A stretch of 64,000 bases of DNA from Bacteroidia bacterium (GTDB lineage: Bacteria > Bacteroidota > Bacteroidia > CAILMK01 > JBBDIG01), in contig JBBDIG010000026.1 of the NCBI GenBank assembly GCA_040880525.1, positions 62,001-126,000 of the forward strand, written 5' to 3'. The notes below the pieces were generated by a model. It was not told the DNA's origin, made no database searches, and saw only the letters and a program-made list of their open reading frames with translations. The position numbers and the translations under genes are program-made. Shown here piece after piece: positions 20,162 to 29,300 of the stretch (its first letter is position 1; each line of letters opens with the position of its first letter).

Positions 20162-21406
20162 ATGAAAACCGAAATCCTCATCATAGGAGATGAAATACTG
20201 AACGGTGAAACCCAGGACACCAATTCGCGATTTATAGCCCGGCAACTCTCGCAAATGGGGCTGTTCGTCAACCGCATTACCACAACGGCAGATCATCCTC
20301 AAGCCATCAGCGAAGCCCTGGGCGAGGTACTGAGCCGCGCAGATCTGGTACTCACTACTGGCGGCCTCGGCCCTACGCATGATGACATTACCGCCACCGC
20401 ACTGGCCGGTTTCTTCAATTGCGAAATGATATTTAATGAAGCGGTATACAGCAGCATTAAGGCGCGTTTTGAAAAGAGAAATAAGCCGGTAAATCCGCTC
20501 AGCCGGCAGCAGGCATTTATTCCTCAAAAGGCAAGACCGATTATAAATCCGGTGGGAACCGCGCCTGCTTTGTGGTTCGAGGAAGCAGGTAAAATCGTGG
20601 TGGCGCTGCCGGGTGTTCCCAGCGAAACTGAATTCCTTGTGGAGCACCACATTATGCCGTTGCTGCGAAGTAAATTACCGGATCATTATATCCGCTATCA
20701 TAAGTTGTTTTTTACCGGCATTGGCGAATCAGATCTTGCCCCGATGCTGGCAGAAATTCAGGCCACCCTGCCCAGGGATGTTACAGTAGCCTACCTGCCT
20801 GGCCTCGGCTACGTTAAGATCAGGATTACAGCCTCTGGTGATGATAAGGAAAGAATATCCAGCGCTTTATCCGAAGTGGCCGGTAAAATGAAATCGGTTG
20901 CGTCTCAATATTATTTCGGAGAAAACGAGGACAATTTTGCGCGAATGGTGAGCCGCGGATTAATTACCTCGCAAAAAACAGTATCAGCCGCTGAAAGCTG
21001 TACCGGTGGCTACCTGGCCCATCAGCTCACGAGCATTCCGGGGTGCTCCGCCTATTTTAAAGGAAGTTGCGTGGCTTATCACAATGAGGTGAAGCAGAAC
21101 GTGCTGGGCGTAAAAGCCGAAACGCTTGAAAAATACGGAGCCGTTAGCGAACCCACCGTGAGAGAAATGGTGCTGGGTGCGCTAAGGATATTTGACAGCG
21201 ACATAGCCCTGGCCACCAGCGGGATTGCAGGTCCTGCGGGCGGCAGTGAGGGAAAGCCGGTGGGAACCGTTTTTATCGGTGCCGGAACAAAAGACCATGT
21301 CGAGATCAGGGAATTTCATTTTAATAAAGACCGGATGCAGAATATTATATTAAGCGCTAATATGGCGCTCATCATGTTAAAGCCTTATTTGAATATCGGG
21401 AAATAA
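20162..21406 (+). CDS. cinA: CinA-family protein / nicotinamide-nucleotide amidase
   Basis: 414 residues with both expected domains: an N-terminal MoCF-like domain (~1-170: IIGDEILNGETQDTNSRFIA, TTGGLGPTHDDITATALA) and a C-terminal CinA/PncC domain (~250-410: AAESCTGGYLAHQLTSIPG, CVAYHNEVKQNVLGV, ATSGIAGPAGGSEGKPVG). The C-terminal domain hydrolyses nicotinamide mononucleotide to recycle pyridine nucleotides; the N-terminal domain in characterised relatives has ADP-ribose pyrophosphatase activity. Length is normal. Confidence 0.95.
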   Translation: MKTEILIIGDEILNGETQDTNSRFIARQLSQMGLFVNRITTTADHPQAISEALGEVLSRADLVLTTGGLGPTHDDITATALAGFFNCEMIFNEAVYSSIKARFEKRNKPVNPLSRQQAFIPQKARPIINPVGTAPALWFEEAGKIVVALPGVPSETEFLVEHHIMPLLRSKLPDHYIRYHKLFFTGIGESDLAPMLAEIQATLPRDVTVAYLPGLGYVKIRITASGDDKERISSALSEVAGKMKSVASQYYFGENEDNFARMVSRGLITSQKTVSAAESCTGGYLAHQLTSIPGCSAYFKGSCVAYHNEVKQNVLGVKAETLEKYGAVSEPTVREMVLGALRIFDSDIALATSGIAGPAGGSEGKPVGTVFIGAGTKDHVEIREFHFNKDRMQNIILSANMALIMLKPYLNIGK

Positions 21407-21584: not shown

Positions 21585-22553
21585 TTACAAATGTTGCATT
21601 TCAAATACCGGAACTCCCTTTTCTCCGGTGGATGAATAAAAATCAATGAAGTGTAATTTCACATACCGGCCTGCTGTGGTGTGAATAACGTAGTTCAGCT
21701 CAGGCCGGATAATGTATGTAGCCAGATCGAAGTCATAATATTTCCAGTCGTAGCCTATGCTGTTTATTGAATCCTGAAACGTGTACCCGGCAATATCGTC
21801 ATAGCTGATCTCATTAAAATCCATTGTACTTTCTGCCGCAACCTGCACTTTATTCCGGTTTATGAGGCTTCCTGAAACCAGGTAGGCCACATTTCCGGGG
21901 AATACATGAATATATTGGGTAAACAACAAATCCCATTCTTGCTTGCCGGGTTCTATGGGTACGACCTCATCTTTATCAAATGAAAAGCTTATGAAATTCA
22001 CCTCCGGATCCTTTTCTATAGATAAGGTTTTCTCTCCGCTGCCCTCCAGGTTTGCGTAGCGGAAAGTGTAGTGTGTTTCGGTTACTTCTTCAAAAGTTAT
22101 TTTTCGATAGCCGGTGTGGTTTGCAGCTTCGTCATATCCCCGGTCTATAATATATACGGTGGAAGAATTTCGCCAGTCGCCAATGGCTGTGCTGTCAAGG
22201 TTTCCTTTCTGATCGTCCCAGGCCCATGCTGCATTCTGATGGCTGGTAACGGCTGCGAAATCCGTAGTTGCTGCCCTGGCCGCTGCCCCTGCGCGTGCAG
22301 AATTCAGCACAATGTGCCAACCCGTTTCTGAAGCCTCAAAACCCAGGTCCCAGTCAGTCCTTAAATTCCGGCTTACCACCGAGTTGGTTTCCAGATCGTA
22401 AAATACCTGATACCTGTAATCGCTTCCCATATTTACAGAGGCGGTAATTACATCGCCAGGTTCATGGGCAGGAACAGGCAATTCACCTTTGTCGCAACCG
22501 CTGAAAAGAGTCAACCAACCGATTGTGATGATCCAATGAGAATTATTTTTCAT
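21585..22553 (-). CDS. HmuY-family heme-binding lipoprotein
   Basis: 322 residues from the ATG at 22553. A longer frame upstream exists but overlaps the receptor gene and hides the lipoprotein signal (hydrophobic stretch then FSGC, cysteine ~20). The body matches the HmuY layout: ITASVNMGSDYRYQVFYDLE, WDLGFEASETGWHIVLNS near 70-90, WAWDD, and a closing WDLLFTQYIHVF...YDWKYYDF section. HmuY-type proteins capture heme at the cell surface and pass it to a TonB-dependent receptor. Here the receptor gene is directly upstream and overlaps by 11 bases, so production is coupled. Last gene of the 28444-21585 operon. No obvious conserved heme-ligand pair can be assigned by eye. Confidence 0.8.
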   Translation of the reverse strand: MKNNSHWIITIGWLTLFSGCDKGELPVPAHEPGDVITASVNMGSDYRYQVFYDLETNSVVSRNLRTDWDLGFEASETGWHIVLNSARAGAAARAATTDFAAVTSHQNAAWAWDDQKGNLDSTAIGDWRNSSTVYIIDRGYDEAANHTGYRKITFEEVTETHYTFRYANLEGSGEKTLSIEKDPEVNFISFSFDKDEVVPIEPGKQEWDLLFTQYIHVFPGNVAYLVSGSLINRNKVQVAAESTMDFNEISYDDIAGYTFQDSINSIGYDWKYYDFDLATYIIRPELNYVIHTTAGRYVKLHFIDFYSSTGEKGVPVFEMQHL

Positions 22554-24813
22554 GAGATGTAGAGAAAAAATTAAGATCAAATTTAACTGCGGTAAAAAAT
22601 GAACGGCCCCAGGAAACGGGTACGTTACCACTGGCTGTAGAGTGTACACCTGCGGAAGTGCCGGTGGTAGCAATATCCTGCACATCCAGCAGATTTTTGG
22701 CTCCCAGAGTCCACGTCAGCCGCTTGTTCCAGAAAGTCCGTGAGGCAGTCAGATCCATAAGATGGTAGCTGCCTATGCGCGTTTGGAGAATATCACCCTC
22801 ATCATCCATTGCGAAACCGGGCAAAGCGCCAGTGTATTTATAAAAGGCAGCCACATTGGTGCGTATTTTCGCGAAGTGATATAACATGCTGCCCCGAATT
22901 TCTCCCGAATAACTGAAATCCGGGACGTTTTCTGTAGCGGAAATGCCGTTGGAACGCCCTGTGTAGGAGGCGCCAGCGCTCAGCTTCAGGTGCCGCGTCA
23001 TTAATTCTGCACCGGCCTGCGCTCCAAATGTTCGGAAGCGGCCTATATTAATATATGTGAATTCTGTCCCGCTTCCGTTTTGCGCCAGCGTGATCAGGTT
23101 TCGGATGTCATTCCAGAAGCCTCCGCTTTCAAGTTTAAGGATTCGCTGTCCCTTCACCTGCTGCCATACAATATTCAATTGCAGGTTATCCGATTCTTCA
23201 GCATTCAATGCGGCATTGCCAAGAATATTATGATTTACATCTACAAATTCAAAATATAATTCTTTGAGAGAAGGTGCTCTGAATCCACGTGCGTACGAAG
23301 CACGGAAGGTGGATTTGCGCCATTTGTACCGCACATTAATAGAAGGAACCAGCGGTGCATTGTAAGTTGAATTATAGGCATAGCGCAAGCCGGGCCGGAA
23401 AGTGAGCGGTTCGATGGGCCGGTATTCTGCACTTGCAAACAGTGCTGCATCCAGCATTTCCTGCTTCTCCCTGCCGGTGCGTTTTCCCCGGGCTGTTTCC
23501 AGGTTCAGGTCATACCCAGCCTCAAAATTCACTTTTACGCTGTCTGCGGAAGTAGTGAAACTCCCTCTGGACATCCAGTTGATGAATTGTGAGGTATCCT
23601 GATCATCCGGGTTGGGAGAAAGTTCCTGCTCCAGGTTGGTAAGGTCCTTAAAATAGGTGTTCTTTATCCTTCTGAAATTATTGTGAGATGCCAGCACATT
23701 GATGTTTTTATGCCTGCCAATTTTCCCGGAGAGTTGCAAGCCTCCATTTGCGCGCCTGGTGTTGTAGTAGTCGTCAAAAGCTGTTTCGCGGTAGGGTTTG
23801 CGGGGCGCACCGCGATTAGTGATGGTTTCGGTGAATATGTCGCCAAAGGGGGAGAAGGAGAACTTCTTTAACTTGTAGCGAAACCGGCCTTGGACAAAAT
23901 GCTGCTCCTTTGGATTCCATTCCCTGACTCTGCTGCTGTCTGCAAGGCGTTTTTCAGGAAACTGCAATTGTGGATCATTGGGCGACCAGCCATCAAAATA
24001 ATTGCGCCCGCCTGAAAAATCGAAACCGTAATTTGTTTTGCTCCAGCCTATCCTTGCATCGGCATTGTATTGCCCGGCTGTTTCGTAGTAGGTGTTGGCT
24101 CCGGCAGAGAGCCCGCTACGGCTGCCTTTTTTAGTAATGATATTGATGGTTCCGGCCAGGGCATCCGTTCCATAGTTTACGGAGAGCGGCCCCTCCACAA
24201 TCTCAATGCGTTCCACATTATTCAGATTGATTTGGCTGAGGTCAATATTGCCATTCAACCGTCCGGTGATGGGAACGCCATCCATCAATATCTTCACATT
24301 CTGTCCGGAAATACCCTGGATGCTGAGGCTGCTGCCCAGCACATTATCCTGCGAGATCCGGACGTTCAGCTCGTTTTGCAGCACATCCCGCAGCGTTATG
24401 GCTCCCTGTGCATCTATCTTTTTCCGGTCAATGATCTTCACCTTGTGAACCGCCTTTTCGGGGCTGTTCGGGGCATATTGCGCTGTCACGATCATGCCGT
24501 TCAATGCCACCGCTGAAGGCTGCATCCGGTAGCTTTTCTTTGCTCCGGCCGGCAGCGTATCCGTTATTTTATAGAATCCGATATATGTTATTTCAATACT
24601 AAATACCGGGTGCTGCCGGGTAAAGGTTTCAGGAATTATTGCCGTACCTGAGTCACCCGTGATCGCCATGCCGGATGCAGCGCCTGCGACTCCTGAGTAG
24701 ACCACGTGAGCAAAAGGCAGCGGCTCTCCCAAATCATCCATCACCGTGATCACTGTCTGGCTATGACCACGGATTGCGGTGAACATCAGCAGCAAAAAAA
24801 GGCTGAACCTCAT
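22543..24813 (-). CDS. TonB-dependent outer-membrane receptor (heme/metallophore type)
   Basis: 756 residues. Signal peptide to ~19 (RGHSQ). A carboxypeptidase-regulatory-like beta-sandwich follows (20-100, VITVMDDLGEPLPFAHVVYS), typical of Bacteroidota receptors. The plug is at ~120-228 (LRDVLQNELNVRIS, KILMDGVPITGRLNG, VERIEIVEGPLSVNYGTDAL). A 22-strand barrel fills the rest, with YARGFRAPSLKELYFEF near 515, the position of the FRAP/NPNL region in heme receptors. Flanked by an HmuY-type lipoprotein gene (11-base overlap) and a flavin/iron-sulfur membrane protein gene (4-base ATGA overlap), so it is most likely a heme or other metal-tetrapyrrole transporter. Energy comes from TonB-ExbBD, not encoded here. 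Confidence 0.9.
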   Translation of the reverse strand: MRFSLFLLLMFTAIRGHSQTVITVMDDLGEPLPFAHVVYSGVAGAASGMAITGDSGTAIIPETFTRQHPVFSIEITYIGFYKITDTLPAGAKKSYRMQPSAVALNGMIVTAQYAPNSPEKAVHKVKIIDRKKIDAQGAITLRDVLQNELNVRISQDNVLGSSLSIQGISGQNVKILMDGVPITGRLNGNIDLSQINLNNVERIEIVEGPLSVNYGTDALAGTINIITKKGSRSGLSAGANTYYETAGQYNADARIGWSKTNYGFDFSGGRNYFDGWSPNDPQLQFPEKRLADSSRVREWNPKEQHFVQGRFRYKLKKFSFSPFGDIFTETITNRGAPRKPYRETAFDDYYNTRRANGGLQLSGKIGRHKNINVLASHNNFRRIKNTYFKDLTNLEQELSPNPDDQDTSQFINWMSRGSFTTSADSVKVNFEAGYDLNLETARGKRTGREKQEMLDAALFASAEYRPIEPLTFRPGLRYAYNSTYNAPLVPSINVRYKWRKSTFRASYARGFRAPSLKELYFEFVDVNHNILGNAALNAEESDNLQLNIVWQQVKGQRILKLESGGFWNDIRNLITLAQNGSGTEFTYINIGRFRTFGAQAGAELMTRHLKLSAGASYTGRSNGISATENVPDFSYSGEIRGSMLYHFAKIRTNVAAFYKYTGALPGFAMDDEGDILQTRIGSYHLMDLTASRTFWNKRLTWTLGAKNLLDVQDIATTGTSAGVHSTASGNVPVSWGRSFFTAVKFDLNFFSTSHEK

Positions 24814-26189
24814 TTTTTCTTTGGTTTATAATTTACACTGTCTGAAACAAAGTCCAGCACCGAGCCGGTAGGGCAGAGGAGGCGGCACCAAAGCATTGGA
24901 TACCGGACGCTGAGCAACACAACGCCAATAGCCACAAAAAACCACATAGCGAGGAAGTCAGGCCCAAACAGATCAGGAAAAAGCTCATAGTTGCTCCAAC
25001 TTCGCAACCCCAGCAAAACTCCCACTATCAGTACGATTGCAAGAGCTCCGCGAATTCTTTTTACCCATTTATTCGGAATAAAGAATTTGGTGCTTGCCTT
25101 TTTTGGAGCCATCTGCAGGAGCAGCCGCTGCACGTTTCCAAAAGGGCAAACGTATTTGCAGTATGTGTTTTTACCCCAAATAGCGCCCAGCAGTACAAAC
25201 AGCGCATACAGGCCGGTGAGCGATGAAACCGTAGTTCCGATAAAAGGATGTAAAAAGGAGATGTAGGTGAATGAATTGTTGAGAAAGAACCCAATATAAG
25301 CGACCGAAATAATACTCAGGATGATGATCCCGCGCTTGCTCTTCCGCCATTTTTTTTGATAACCATAAATGAAAATGGAGAGAATAACCAGAATGTGGGC
25401 GACCCACCATAAGCTTAGCCCGGCCTCTACTGCAAAGCCCTCTGCATCCTCCAGAGCGGCAAAAGAGAAAAGCGGCTCTGGTGCTGCTTCATGGATCAGC
25501 GCTGTGGCGGTTTTGGCGATGGCTTCTGAGGTGATGGTGGCGCCCGAAACGCCATCCACCAGATGCTCCTTTTCCAAAGGTAAACCCTGGTATTGCTCGT
25601 AATAGCCCCGGTTGCTCATGCGCTGCAGGTAGCTTTCCGTTTCTTTGGATGAGACGTGATGGACCGTGCGCAATGTCCCGTCTTTGCTAAGCACTACGCC
25701 CACATTTATCAACCCGGCATATCCATGAATATCATTGATAATTCCTTTGCTTTCCAGGTACAGCAACTTGTCATTTCCTTCTGCACTCACGTAATAAAAA
25801 TTATCGCTGGACTTGAGCTGCAAAGGATTTTCGTTGCCTAAAATGGTTTTTGCATGTTCGAGCAATTGCTCCACGAATTCGCCCGTGGCATTCGCATCAT
25901 TCTCAGGAGAAACGATTATCCCGGCATTTTCGCTGTTCACCGGCTTATCCAGGATGAGGCCGTGGCCAAAGCCTTTGGTTTCTTCATCCTCAATGGTTCC
26001 GAAATTCTGGCGCTCGGCTCTCTCACCCACCAGTCCGGGTTTGGAAAATTCAGTCTCCTCCTGTTCCAGGTTAATTACTTGAAGGTCTTGCAGCAAAGGC
26101 CCGTTTATCCAGAAAAACATGAAAAAGCCAGCAACGGCAAGTGTGGCCAGGAGCTTCAGTTTTTCCTGCCTTATGAAATTAACGGGCAC
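24810..26189 (-). CDS. NosR-like membrane protein: flavinylated FMN-binding domain plus 4Fe-4S motifs
   Basis: 459 residues. Helix 1 (12-30) anchors the protein. A periplasmic FMN-binding domain follows (~125-235), carrying the covalent flavinylation motif DGVSGATITS at 212-221 with T218 as the expected acceptor for ApbE-transferred FMN. About five helices follow (260-425). Two cysteine pairs sit beside the membrane: CKYVCPFG (C344, C348) and CRLLCPTG (C435, C439), as in the 4Fe-4S_5 family (NosR/NapH/CcoG relatives). Proteins of this plan move electrons between the quinone/cytoplasmic side and periplasmic acceptors. The ATGA overlap with the receptor gene and the 5-base gap to the chelatase gene place it in tetrapyrrole or iron metabolism. 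My inference is a reductant supply for periplasmic heme or iron handling. Confidence 0.85.
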   Translation of the reverse strand: MPVNFIRQEKLKLLATLAVAGFFMFFWINGPLLQDLQVINLEQEETEFSKPGLVGERAERQNFGTIEDEETKGFGHGLILDKPVNSENAGIIVSPENDANATGEFVEQLLEHAKTILGNENPLQLKSSDNFYYVSAEGNDKLLYLESKGIINDIHGYAGLINVGVVLSKDGTLRTVHHVSSKETESYLQRMSNRGYYEQYQGLPLEKEHLVDGVSGATITSEAIAKTATALIHEAAPEPLFSFAALEDAEGFAVEAGLSLWWVAHILVILSIFIYGYQKKWRKSKRGIIILSIISVAYIGFFLNNSFTYISFLHPFIGTTVSSLTGLYALFVLLGAIWGKNTYCKYVCPFGNVQRLLLQMAPKKASTKFFIPNKWVKRIRGALAIVLIVGVLLGLRSWSNYELFPDLFGPDFLAMWFFVAIGVVLLSVRYPMLWCRLLCPTGSVLDFVSDSVNYKPKKK

Positions 26190-26194
26190 CTTTA

Positions 26195-27097
26195 TTAAAG
26201 CGATTCTACGGTTTCATTGGAAATCTGCACTACCCATTTATTCAGGTTGTCATCGGGCAGAATGGCATCCTGCACGTAGTGCACCCTGCCGGAGTTCTCT
26301 ACTTCATCTACGGCCTTCTGAATAATGTCGTTCTGGAAATAGGGATCGTTGGCCACGAGCACCGGCACTACCAGCACCTCGTCTTCCAGTTGAAACAGTT
26401 TGGTTATACCGTCTTTTGTCGGGGAGGTAGAATAGTTCACCAGGTGTCCGCACCAGGCGTAGGCAATGCTCTCATGGCCGGTTTTTACTTTCAGGTATTT
26501 GCCAATATCCTCCACCATTTTTTCCCATTGCTGGTTGTATTGCTCGTCTCCATAAGCCACCAGCAGAATTCCCTCGTTTTGGGCGTTTTTGCTCAAGGCA
26601 CGTACCCTGCGCTCCACATTCTTTTTGAGCAGCGTGGTATAGTCCAGTGCAGGAGTTACCGTAACGCGGGCTTTGGGTTTATATACTTCGATCTTCTCTT
26701 TTGCCAGTTCTTCACGGATTTTCTGGTCATTCATTATTCCGCAAATCACAGGGATGTCATGAGAATAGTGCGAACTGACCGTCAGGAAAATAGGCACAAC
26801 CACGATTTCGTCATAGTTCTCTTCATCATATTCTTTAAGGCGGGTGGCTATTGACGGCTCATTGTATTCCATAAAAGCTGTACGTACATCCGCGATTCTT
26901 GGATTTTTCAGCATTTCTGCTTTTACGGTTTCCTCAACGTCCACCAGCATATCGCGCCACATCTCAGAATGCGATCCATGATTCACCAGCACTATCCCCA
27001 CTTTTTTTCCCTTAGCTGAAGTTTCTTCAGGTTGTTGTTGCTTGCATGCCCCGGCAACTATTCCCACGAGCATAATCAGAATGATAAGTTTTTTCAT
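26195..27097 (-). CDS. Periplasmic lipoprotein of the CbiK/CbiX sirohydrochlorin cobaltochelatase family
   Basis: 300 residues. A lipoprotein signal ends VAGAC (C18), so unlike ordinary CbiK/CbiX it is envelope-located. The class II chelatase fold is visible as two similar halves (~32-160 and ~175-275), each opening with a beta strand and glycine loop (GIVLVNHGSH; GILLVAYGD). Candidate metal/porphyrin residues are H40 and H43, H110 and H113 in SSHYSHDIPVICG, and H218 in AWCGH. Family enzymes insert cobalt or iron into sirohydrochlorin; a periplasmic CbiK of Desulfovibrio that can bind heme is known. Sandwiched between an HmuY-like protein and a flavin/Fe-S protein in a TonB-receptor operon, a role in periplasmic heme handling or demetallation is more likely than cobalamin synthesis; that is inference. 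Confidence 0.82.
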   Translation of the reverse strand: MKKLIILIMLVGIVAGACKQQQPEETSAKGKKVGIVLVNHGSHSEMWRDMLVDVEETVKAEMLKNPRIADVRTAFMEYNEPSIATRLKEYDEENYDEIVVVPIFLTVSSHYSHDIPVICGIMNDQKIREELAKEKIEVYKPKARVTVTPALDYTTLLKKNVERRVRALSKNAQNEGILLVAYGDEQYNQQWEKMVEDIGKYLKVKTGHESIAYAWCGHLVNYSTSPTKDGITKLFQLEDEVLVVPVLVANDPYFQNDIIQKAVDEVENSGRVHYVQDAILPDDNLNKWVVQISNETVESL

Positions 27098-27125
27098 TTT
27101 CTGGCTTTTTTGAATTGATTTTTAA

Positions 27126-27167
27126 AATGGAAATGTCCATCAGATTTACTGACCGGACATTTCCATT
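27126..27167 (-). terminator. Intra-operon hairpin (possible attenuator or mRNA stabiliser)
   Basis: Perfect 13-bp arms (AATGGAAATGTCC at 27126-27138; complement at 27155-27167) around a 16-base loop. It lies between the HmuY-T9SS gene and the chelatase gene. The downstream T run on the minus strand is interrupted, so it is probably a partial terminator or a 3'-end stabiliser that lets the first gene be expressed more than the rest. Confidence 0.6.
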
Positions 27168-27168
27168 A

Positions 27169-27202
27169 TTGGGTTGCTACTATTTTTGGGTTGCTACTAT
27201 TT
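27169..27202. repeat. Exact tandem duplication of a 17-bp unit overlapping a stop codon
   Basis: The unit TTGGGTTGCTACTATTT occurs twice without a gap (27169-27185 and 27186-27202). The second copy contains the stop codon of the HmuY-T9SS gene (TAG at 27199-27197). It is adjacent to the hairpin at 27126-27167. Confidence 0.9.
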
Positions 27203-28444
27203 AATGAATAGTTTCTGAGTAAAGACGTGGCCACGGCTCCGGAGCGAAACCAGATATATTCCAGGCCTCAGCCCGTGTGTGCTTATTTGCAAAGCCGCCC
27301 AGTCAGCACCCGCAATCCGCGTGGATGACTGCATTTTGCCGGCAAGATCATATATCTGCAGTTCCGCATTTTCTCCTTCAAAAGGATGAATAATGTTTAC
27401 CTGACCCGCAGTTGACGGATTCGGAAAAATTTGCAGTTCTTCAGCTTTGAAATTTTCCTTTAGACCGGTCCGGAGCACAAGTTCTTTCTGAAAATACATC
27501 TTGCCATTTGCACTTCCGCCAAATCCGGAAAAGATCATTTTCCAGATGCTGCCTTCCGTATCCTTCACGAAGTACAACAAGGAATCTTCTATTATATATT
27601 CAAATGTTGTGTTGTCAAAACGTTTCCAGTCGTAGCCGATGGTGTTGATGCTGGTACTGAGTGTATGGGCGCTGTGGTCTGTATAATATTCAGGATCGTT
27701 TACGGGATGCACCTTTGCTGCTGTTACGCCCATGTTCTGCAATACACCGGTAACGCTGTAATAAAGACCTGGCGCCACCTGCGTCATGTACCGGGTAAAG
27801 ATCAGGTCATAAGATTGCTTTTCCGGTTCGCGGTCAACCTGCTGATGATCAGCCAGGGAGTAGTACCCGAAGTTTTTGTCAGCAAAGTCTGCTTTCTTTA
27901 ATGAAGCGGTGCGGTCATCGCTTCCGTCAATATTTGCGTAGCGGAAATTGTAGCTGCCGTTAAGGAGCGTTTGTATCCATAATTTCTTCCAGCCTGAAGC
28001 CACTTTAACCAGATATATGGAATCACCTTTTACCACGTGGCTTATTGGATTATAAATGCCCCAGCCAATGTCAAAGGGATCTGTGCCATTCAGTGTGGCT
28101 TCAAATGCGCCCAGGCTCCATGAAGTATCGCTGTCATAAAGTTGCGGCCACGCTGCCATTCCGCTGGTATCAGGGCTGTTCCAGTCGGCAGTATCTCCAT
28201 TTGAGTACAGGTATAGCTCGGTCCTGGTCGCGCTGTTTACGCGGATTGATGATCCCTGATTGGTTACATCAAAAGCCAGGTCCCAGTTGGTATTGTCTTC
28301 CATGGCAATTTCGCCCTGGCTCAGGCTGTAATAGGAATCCTGTCCATAACCTGCTCCCATTGCGATAGAATCTGAGATCGGTTGTGCGAGTACAGGAGAG
28401 ATTAGAAATGGAAAGAAAAGGATCAGGCAAGTGGAGCGTTTCAT
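27197..28444 (-). CDS. HmuY-like protein carrying a T9SS type A sorting domain
   Basis: 415 residues. Signal peptide to ~20 (PVLAQ). Residues ~25-330 align in layout with the lipoprotein at 21585: NTNWDLAFDVTNQGSSIRVNS (compare WDLGFEASETGWHIVLNS), ...KSYDLIFTRYMTQVAPGLYYSV, then SINTIGYDWKRFDN (compare SINSIGYDWKYYDF). The C-terminal ~75 residues are a T9SS sorting domain (LQIFPNPSTAGQVNII ... GIYLVSLRSRG ... LFIK). This copy is therefore predicted to be exported through the T9SS and attached to, or released from, the cell surface, whereas its paralogue is a lipoprotein. First gene of the operon, with promoter and palindromic operator upstream. Confidence 0.85.
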   Translation of the reverse strand: MKRSTCLILFFPFLISPVLAQPISDSIAMGAGYGQDSYYSLSQGEIAMEDNTNWDLAFDVTNQGSSIRVNSATRTELYLYSNGDTADWNSPDTSGMAAWPQLYDSDTSWSLGAFEATLNGTDPFDIGWGIYNPISHVVKGDSIYLVKVASGWKKLWIQTLLNGSYNFRYANIDGSDDRTASLKKADFADKNFGYYSLADHQQVDREPEKQSYDLIFTRYMTQVAPGLYYSVTGVLQNMGVTAAKVHPVNDPEYYTDHSAHTLSTSINTIGYDWKRFDNTTFEYIIEDSLLYFVKDTEGSIWKMIFSGFGGSANGKMYFQKELVLRTGLKENFKAEELQIFPNPSTAGQVNIIHPFEGENAELQIYDLAGKMQSSTRIAGADWAALQISTHGLRPGIYLVSLRSRGHVFTQKLFIK

Positions 28445-28471: not shown

Positions 28472-28488
28472 TTTAGAATAATTCTAAA
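28472..28488 (-). promoter_or_regulatory. Palindromic operator (Fur-family-like box) of the heme operon
   Basis: TTTAGAATAATTCTAAA: a perfect 7-bp inverted repeat with a 3-base spacer, also readable as a 7-1-7 box (TTAGAAT-A-ATTCTAA), the geometry of Fur/PerR-family sites. It begins 6 bases downstream of the -7 element and ends 27 bases before the ATG at 28444, so a bound protein would cover the transcription start. A near-identical site precedes the regulator gene (29280-29300). Confidence 0.7.
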
Positions 28489-28591: not shown

Positions 28592-29266
28592 TTAGTGTTG
28601 TTCAGGAGCTTCGATATCCTCGGGTTTTACGATGCCGGCATTCACGGCATACATTACCAGCGCAGAGGCAGAGCGGATTTGCAGCTTTTTGAGGATATTC
28701 TTGCGGTGGGTGCTTACGGTATGAATGCTCAGGAAAAGATGCCGGGCAATGTCTTTATTGGTAAAACCCTTTGCAATGAGGCGGGTCACTTCTATTTCCC
28801 GCTCGGTAAGGCTTGTGGGTGCGCAGTTATCCTCTTCCTGTGGAGAAAAGCTGCGCTCCATCAGGATGTTGATGATTTTATTACAATAAAACTTTTGTCC
28901 TTTAGCAATGGAAAATACGGCATTAATGATCTCTTCTTCATCGCAGGTAAATGTGAGGTATCCGCTCACACCAGCCTCAAGTACTCTCATAATGGAGTCC
29001 TGATTATCGTCCGCTGAAATCACCAGCATTTTGAGATTGGGAAACTTTGACCGGATCCGTAGCAGATCGTCCATCGTAAAATGCGGTGGCTGCTGATAAT
29101 CCATAATGAGCAGGGCCGGCATAGCAGCGCCTATTTCCTTCATCAGTTGCGAGATGTCAGGGATCTGCCTGATGAAGCTAATGCCGCCACCTTTGCTTAA
29201 AACTGCCTTCAACCCCTGGCGTGCGAGGGGGCGGGAATCTGCGTGTATAATTGTGAGACCTTCCAA
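28592..29266 (-). CDS. NarL/LuxR-type response regulator with a degenerate receiver
   Basis: 224 residues, starting at TTG 29266 (no usable ATG nearby). Receiver at ~1-130, with D10 in the acidic pocket, phospho-acceptor D56 (LLIMDYQQP) and S84 (LVISADD). The lysine expected after GYL is absent (SGYLTFTCDEEE, position ~106 is F), so classical phospho-activation is doubtful. A NarL-type HTH follows at ~152-215 (LTEREIEVTRLIAKGFTNKDIA, HTVSTHRKNILKKL). Three cysteines (108, 128, 147) sit between and around the domains. No histidine kinase gene is adjacent. It lies upstream of the heme operon and is preceded by the same palindrome, so it probably shares its repressor and may regulate the operon. 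Confidence 0.88.
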   Translation of the reverse strand: MEGLTIIHADSRPLARQGLKAVLSKGGGISFIRQIPDISQLMKEIGAAMPALLIMDYQQPPHFTMDDLLRIRSKFPNLKMLVISADDNQDSIMRVLEAGVSGYLTFTCDEEEIINAVFSIAKGQKFYCNKIINILMERSFSPQEEDNCAPTSLTEREIEVTRLIAKGFTNKDIARHLFLSIHTVSTHRKNILKKLQIRSASALVMYAVNAGIVKPEDIEAPEQH

Positions 29267-29279
29267 GATGGTTCAAAAC

Positions 29280-29300
29280 TATTTAGAAAGATTCTAAATA
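29280..29300 (-). promoter_or_regulatory. Second copy of the palindromic operator, before the regulator gene
   Basis: A perfect 9-bp inverted repeat TATTTAGAA-AGA-TTCTAAATA, sharing the 14 arm bases TTTAGAA...TTCTAAA with the site at 28472-28488 and the same 3-base spacer. It ends 13 bases before the TTG start at 29266. A weak -7-like ATATTG lies directly upstream (29308-29303), the same arrangement as at the heme operon. Confidence 0.7.

Follow-up and report, generated by a model that had tools for sequence, protein, structure and literature searches.

The window, that is, the whole stretch of 64,000 nucleotides analysed, contains five genes on the minus strand that the original prediction had described as an operon joining HmuY-type surface proteins to a TonB receptor, a chelatase-like lipoprotein and a flavinylated Fe-S membrane protein. 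Their order and coordinates were all confirmed, and their domains were identified with Pfam (Table 1). The spacing proposed for the later genes also holds: 5 bases lie between genes 2 and 3, with overlaps of 4 bases between genes 3 and 4 and 11 bases between genes 4 and 5. Genes 1 and 2 are 99 bases apart, and the spacer holds a strong RNA hairpin; situated behind the gene for the secreted HmuY-like protein, it may keep the level of this hemophore above that of the rest of the operon. At four other loci (L011, L013, L014 and L068) this spacer likewise contains a hairpin, with no relation in sequence. The start of gene 5 is most likely at 22553 (MKNNSHW..., lipobox LFSGC), and hence the longest open reading frame, which begins at 22685, overshoots by about 130 bases. 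Gene 5 ends the operon; the next gene (20162-21406), CinA-like by inspection, is convergent on the opposite strand. Neither HmuT, HmuU or HmuV genes nor an IhtCDE-type ABC transporter gene are found within the window's operon. An ABC-ATPase-like neighbour group was seen at three other loci (representative in L047).

Table 1. Position and supporting evidence of the operon genes and of the adjacent features, in window coordinates.
Feature	Position	Strand	Evidence
Gene 1: secreted HmuY-like protein with T9SS type A sorting domain, 415 aa	27197..28444	-	Pfam HmuY, Por_Secre_tail; TIGR04183
Gene 2: class II chelatase lipoprotein, CbiX/SirB/CfbA type, 300 aa, lipobox VAGAC18	26195..27097	-	Pfam CbiX
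Gene 3: inner-membrane FMN-binding/4Fe-4S electron-transfer protein, 459 aa, GTG start	24810..26189	-	Pfam Fer4_5, FMN_bind
Gene 4: TonB-dependent receptor, 756 aa, nearest the BtuB/Cir/heme-receptor group	22543..24813	-	Plug and barrel profiles
Gene 5: HmuY-family lipoprotein, 322 aa, lipobox LFSGC20	21585..22553	-	Pfam HmuY 72.9 bits
Intercistronic RNA hairpin in the spacer of genes 1 and 2	27126..27167	-	-24.7 kcal/mol, z = -6.5
Orphan LuxR/NarL-type response regulator, immediately upstream of the operon	28592..29266	-	Pfam GerE 1.3e-19, Response_reg 1.3e-9
Palindrome TTTAGAATTATTCTAAA, immediately ahead of gene 1; putative operator for an iron regulator	28472..28488	-	Exact TTTAGA-N5-TCTAAA site
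Palindrome TTTAGAATCTTTCTAAA, upstream of the response-regulator gene	29282..29298	-	One of five exact sites in the genome

The lipoprotein encoded by gene 2 had been assigned to a joint CbiK/CbiX family. The lipobox and the relationship to the CbiX/SirB/CfbA type stand, with 62 bits against Pfam CbiX (cut-off 22), while the CbiK part of the assignment does not, as PF06180 gives 17.7 bits, under its cut-off of 26.2. A structure model of the protein (pLDDT 90.5) has SirB (3.9e-8) and HemH (1.6e-7) as its best PDB matches in Foldseek, and also matches CbiX and the periplasmic CbiK of Desulfovibrio vulgaris (2xvx, E 1.1e-4). H40, H110, C216 and H218 are invariant in 54/54 homologues. The first two form the metal-binding His pair, in the motifs NHGS and HxxxDIP of the N-terminal half, the same position as in SirB and CbiX-L, whose active site is in that half (PMC4063343); C216 and H218 belong to an invariant WCGH motif in the C-terminal half. 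A lipobox-like Cys is present in about 74 of the 81 chelatase rows (68 by pattern, 6 by eye). These features suggest that gene 2 encodes an exported class II chelatase, for which dechelatase activity is predicted. A second, fast-evolving chelatase paralogue was observed at L047:2018-2980 and L038:8708-9667, with the reductase gene lying between the copies.

Gene 1 reaches 31.6 bits with the HmuY profile (cut-off 27) and 39.8 bits with Por_Secre_tail, and also matches TIGR04183. Comparison of gene 5 with PDB folds gave ten matches at E <= 1e-3, all of them HmuY-type or putative B. fragilis lipoprotein entries, with a loose TM of 0.19-0.33 to those HmuY folds, the gene 5 protein being larger; PDB searches with HmuY profiles returned weak matches only. 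HmuY proteins are known to vary in ligand mode, some binding porphyrin without coordinating iron (PMC12106395). The best model for the gene 4 receptor is that of the B12 receptor, though the score is far under its cut-off. At six loci (L006, L007, L011, L013, L059 and L076) a small DUF6686 protein of about 105-120 aa, with a CxxC motif, is inserted before the TonB receptor.

Gene 3 scores 45 bits with Fer4_5 and 41 bits with FMN_bind. It carries the motif DGVSGAT218, which fits the flavinylation consensus Dxx(S/T)GAT and places the predicted flavin site at T218; D212, G216, A217 and T218 are kept in 27/27 FMN-type homologues, in which all four Cys of the two CxxxCP motifs are likewise invariant (27/27). 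Judging from hydrophobicity, residues 30-255, containing the FMN site, would be periplasmic and both CxxxCP motifs cytoplasmic. Two copies of the flavin transferase ApbE are found in each of the FMN-type genomes G000 and G056, and ApbE is present in one of three genomes of the alternative type described below.

The distribution of the arrangement was studied at two scales. Among 60 related genomes the chelatase was found in five, that of the window included, and the other four carriers have the same gene order. A scan of one genome per species, covering 84,980 species, detected 147 relatives; the best 80 of these were retained, so that counts reflect closer relatives and should not be read as unbiased frequencies. 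In all, 84 loci were compared, including four taken from whole genomes, three of which also occur among the scan loci, and 79 rows could be scored after two contig-edge rows and two second chelatase copies were left out. The core of the 84 loci consists of the chelatase and a membrane electron-transfer protein, in most cases accompanied by genes for HmuY and a TonB receptor. Among the carriers are Flammeovirga, Reichenbachiella, Flavicella, Chromatiaceae, Chlorobiota, Planctomycetota and Verrucomicrobiota. Dozens of genomes share the arrangement, which is thus far beyond what chance would give. A search of viral contigs found no relatives.

In 73 of the 79 scorable loci (best 80 of 147 relatives), the gene directly after the chelatase encodes a membrane electron-transfer protein. 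Co-occurrence of this kind, usually extending to the HmuY and TonB receptor genes, is what the original prediction had looked to as a check; it had specified the FMN/4Fe-4S gene, and this part holds for 31 loci, the window included, whereas 42 carry a PepSY_TM-like protein instead (again among the best 80 of 147 relatives). The two kinds of partner are unrelated to each other. The second, PepSY_TM_like_2 (PF16357/PF03929), is about 190 aa long with three predicted membrane spans, and has three membrane-flanking His that are invariant in 42/42; a sequence search found no relative of it in the PDB. Both classes have been tied to extracytosolic reduction (PMC8238504; PMC13038864, the latter on VciB and FoxB). 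The chelatase tree splits cleanly by partner type, with FMN rows on one side and PepSY rows on the other (support 100/99). As the type of reductase split once, deep in the tree, the swap represents one evolutionary event rather than many. A partner is missing from six loci of this set (best 80 of 147 relatives), three of which, from Ignavibacteria and Chloroflexota, form one clade in which the chelatase lacks a signal peptide and no reductase, HmuY or TonB receptor lies beside it. These signal-less versions (L080, L084 and L086) are apparently cytoplasmic.

Other genes recur near the cluster at lower frequency. In six loci the gene next after that for HmuY encodes a ChaN-type heme-binding protein (PF04187). 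An AraC-family regulator is found beside the cluster in nine (e.g. L037:6693-7640), and was observed several times in Flammeovirga-type loci with a weak palindrome. The response regulator recurs beside the cluster in six loci, its homologues adjoining it in L006/L011, L067, L073 and L087. In the window this regulator has a receiver domain without the usual conserved Lys (GYLTF), and it is possibly ligand-sensing rather than phosphorylated; two Cys (in FxCNK and DNC.P) are common to some of the homologues.

Evidence bearing on regulation includes the palindrome TTTAGA-N5-TCTAAA, of which five exact copies are present in the 3.8 Mb genome against about 0.4 expected from base composition. These precede the operon itself, its response regulator, sufB (L109:3777), a pair encoding a TonB receptor and a DUF4374 lipoprotein (L108:7133) and a cytochrome c/ACIII operon (L107:6846), and the genes concerned represent a candidate iron regulon of this lineage. 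In B. thetaiotaomicron, the DUF4374/TonB/PepSY genes of the locus BT2063-65 are induced 489- to 676-fold in low iron, the strongest such induction in that species (PMC10434189). Allowing at most one mismatch, the palindrome lies before the first gene of 26/79 homologous operons versus 24/737 other ORFs, and shuffling of the upstream sequence leads to an expectation of 0.35 against the 26 found. Genome-wide, sites with at most one mismatch are not enriched (20, against 25 for the reversed control), and exact sites alone were therefore used at that scale. Some homologues from Gammaproteobacteria have Fur boxes in its place, at L027:4422 (19/19, some 570 bases ahead of the ORF called for the TonB receptor), in L039 (16/19, 112 bases before the chelatase) and in L041 (14/19). 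The original prediction would have expression follow the supply of iron or heme, and predicted regulation is indeed iron-linked in two phyla, through the neighbours of the palindrome in one and Fur boxes in the other. Identification of the palindrome as a Fur/PerR box was dropped, there being only five exact sites, and three matches to DtxR-family regulators in the genome of the window; candidates for the protein that binds it are a Fur-like regulator, a DtxR-like regulator or the adjacent response regulator. A scan for sigma-70 promoters and terminators detected fewer sites than in shuffles and was set aside.

At the level of whole genomes, FeoB is present in 5/5 carriers and HemH in 4/5, including that of the window, G013 having no recognised ferrochelatase. 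CobN/HmuS (PF02514) was detected in none of the five carriers and in none of the 55 non-carrier relatives. An argument that the operon replaces HmuS was consequently dropped, because the absence of PF02514 from all 60 relatives, regardless of whether they have the operon, is not evidence of replacement. That the operon is a different solution from HmuS, as originally proposed, is nevertheless plausible.

A mechanism can be outlined in which the two HmuY-family proteins, one exported by the T9SS and the other a lipoprotein, would catch heme, or a close iron-tetrapyrrole, at the surface, and the TonB receptor would move the ligand into the periplasm. There the FMN/4Fe-4S protein would pass electrons from its cytoplasmic 4Fe-4S centres to the covalent periplasmic FMN, by which ferric heme would be reduced. 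The chelatase lipoprotein, putatively facing the periplasm, would then free Fe2+ from the reduced porphyrin, in a reversal of the ferrochelatase or sirohydrochlorin-chelatase reaction, and the Fe2+ would be taken up by FeoB. It is very probable that this is an iron-regulated system for the acquisition of tetrapyrroles or iron in which the chelatase and the reductase act together, and on sequence grounds both the predicted iron regulation and the pairing of these two proteins are well supported. The envelope route for tetrapyrrole iron in the original prediction, with an exported chelatase and electrons from a flavin/Fe-S protein, likewise gains support. We infer that heme is the ligand, that it is reduced and demetallated, and that the reaction runs in this direction; the full mechanism, in which iron is harvested from heme outside the cytoplasm, has a probability of roughly 0.55. 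Weighing against the demetallation reading are the WCGH motif, the variable ligand mode of HmuY proteins, the loose match of the gene 5 protein to solved HmuY folds, the single split in reductase type and a result from B. fragilis, where disruption of a class II cobaltochelatase gene left heme-iron use unaffected (unpublished data, as cited in PMC6460266).

The periplasmic CbiK of Desulfovibrio vulgaris has been discussed in connection with heme. Given the fold match to that protein (2xvx), the lipoprotein could be a former chelatase serving as a periplasmic heme carrier, with the reductase merely altering the redox state of heme so as to ease transfer and intact heme being passed on; C216/H218, as an extra invariant motif, could serve binding, and intact heme could be useful to a carrier such as G013 that has no recognised ferrochelatase. 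However, both catalytic-type His are invariant in 54/54, the operon contains no heme ABC transporter, and the genome of the window has its own HemH, making iron, not heme, the likelier need. Such a relay is therefore regarded as unlikely. Reduction of some other iron complex, either a siderophore or a non-heme chelate, with the CbiX-like lipoprotein as an Fe2+ binder or shuttle, would agree with the sharing of the iron operator with the TonB/DUF4374 pair and with the reduction of ferrisiderophores by PepSY_TM proteins such as FoxB (PMC13038864). It is decidedly improbable in view of the two HmuY-family proteins, the ChaN neighbour in six loci and a tetrapyrrole-chelatase fold whose His pair is intact, all of which indicate tetrapyrroles.

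Readings that invoke a different metal are given less weight still. The CbiX annotation of the family, and the best score of the TonB receptor being with the B12 model, albeit far under cut-off, could indicate salvage or biosynthesis of cobalamin or another cobalt-tetrapyrrole, in which the chelatase inserts or removes cobalt. Co-occurrence with cobalamin biosynthesis genes was an outcome the original prediction had named as contrary to its scheme, and no such gene was recognised beside the operons; the corrin synthesis marker CbiC is found in 0/5 carrier genomes, the window contains no match to any RNA family, no cobalamin riboswitch is present in the window or in eight loci, and the operators are of iron type. 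A role in cobalamin metabolism was rejected on these grounds and is considered very improbable. Acquisition of copper for respiratory oxidases, the membrane protein serving to reduce cupric ions, has a precedent in Bordetella CrtA/CrpH, a copper-regulated operon that likewise combines a TonB receptor with a PepSY_TM protein (PMC12914433, PMC13038864). This is scarcely credible and was also rejected, because the operators are of iron type, being common to suf and a siderophore-type locus, with Fur boxes in the Gammaproteobacteria, and because HmuY and a tetrapyrrole chelatase would be left unexplained.

Extraction of iron from heme by demetallation has precedents. IhtB, an outer-membrane lipoprotein of P. 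gingivalis resembling CbiK, was proposed in 2000 to remove heme iron (Dashper 2000, as cited in PMC6460266; PMC10913741). The Iht system (TonB receptor IhtA, IhtB and the ABC transporter IhtCDE) similarly places a class II chelatase-like lipoprotein by a TonB receptor (PMC10913741, PMC6460266, PMC13227078). However, IhtB is described as a CbiK homologue, whereas the chelatase of the window is of the CbiX/SirB/CfbA type and falls under the CbiK cut-off; the Iht system includes an ABC transporter and is described with neither HmuY nor a flavin or PepSY reductase, and IhtB is not under the control of PgFur (PMC10913741). HmuYRSTUV shares with the operon an HmuY-type hemophore, a TonB receptor, proposed periplasmic release of Fe2+ and expression on iron starvation (PMC12583661, PMC13227078). 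In that system HmuS, a relative of CobN-type class I chelatases of about 1450 aa, was shown in 2025 to turn heme into PPIX and Fe(II) in an NADH-dependent manner with an unknown electron path (PMC12583661), and its activity is stimulated by inner membranes (PMC13227078); the mechanism outlined above parallels that of HmuS. By contrast, the operon of the window encodes a class II chelatase of about 300 aa and a dedicated electron-transfer protein, and lacks HmuS, HmuT, HmuU and HmuV. Use of heme iron by B. fragilis requires FeoAB (PMC6460266).

Likenesses to individual components are also evident. CbiKP of D. vulgaris (2xvx) is another exported class II chelatase of similar fold, but is a distant relative, not known here beside HmuY or a reductase, and the metal in its co-crystal is cobalt (PMC4063343). 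Flavinylated NapH-like systems (Meheust 2021, PMC8238504) likewise combine FMN_bind with a Fer4_5/NapH-type membrane protein and a genome-encoded ApbE; the main text of that study makes no mention of HmuY, CbiX or a chelatase (PMC8238504). The partner in 42 loci resembles the PepSY_TM ferric reductases FoxB and VciB in its assignment to PF16357/PF03929 and its invariant membrane-flanking His, and differs from them in having about 190 aa and three predicted spans and in adjoining a chelatase. A search of the open literature, with subscription papers and preprints mostly outside its scope, found no HmuY operon in which a lipoprotein of CbiX type is partnered by a reductase of the FMN/4Fe-4S or PepSY kind. 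Hence, within the literature searched, the combination of a class II chelatase and its own, interchangeable reductase appears not to have been described, and its novelty is limited by the proposal for IhtB in 2000 and the demonstration for HmuS in 2025.

The arrangement bears on how anaerobes and many environmental bacteria obtain iron from heme when they use no heme oxygenase, a task for which HmuS is the demonstrated enzyme among Bacteroidota. There is an even chance that it represents a widespread heme-iron extractor, shared by Bacteroidota, Gammaproteobacteria, Chlorobiota and other groups. In such a system an exported, demetallating class II chelatase would be driven by a dedicated transmembrane electron carrier, for which a flavinylated 4Fe-4S protein and a PepSY_TM-like protein have been exchanged in evolution. 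If so, class II chelatases would be working physiologically in reverse. As the reductant would be genetically tied to the chelatase, the questions of iron release and of electron source could both be tested in one small operon, cultured carriers of which include Flammeovirga, Reichenbachiella, Flavicella, Marichromatium and Thiorhodococcus.
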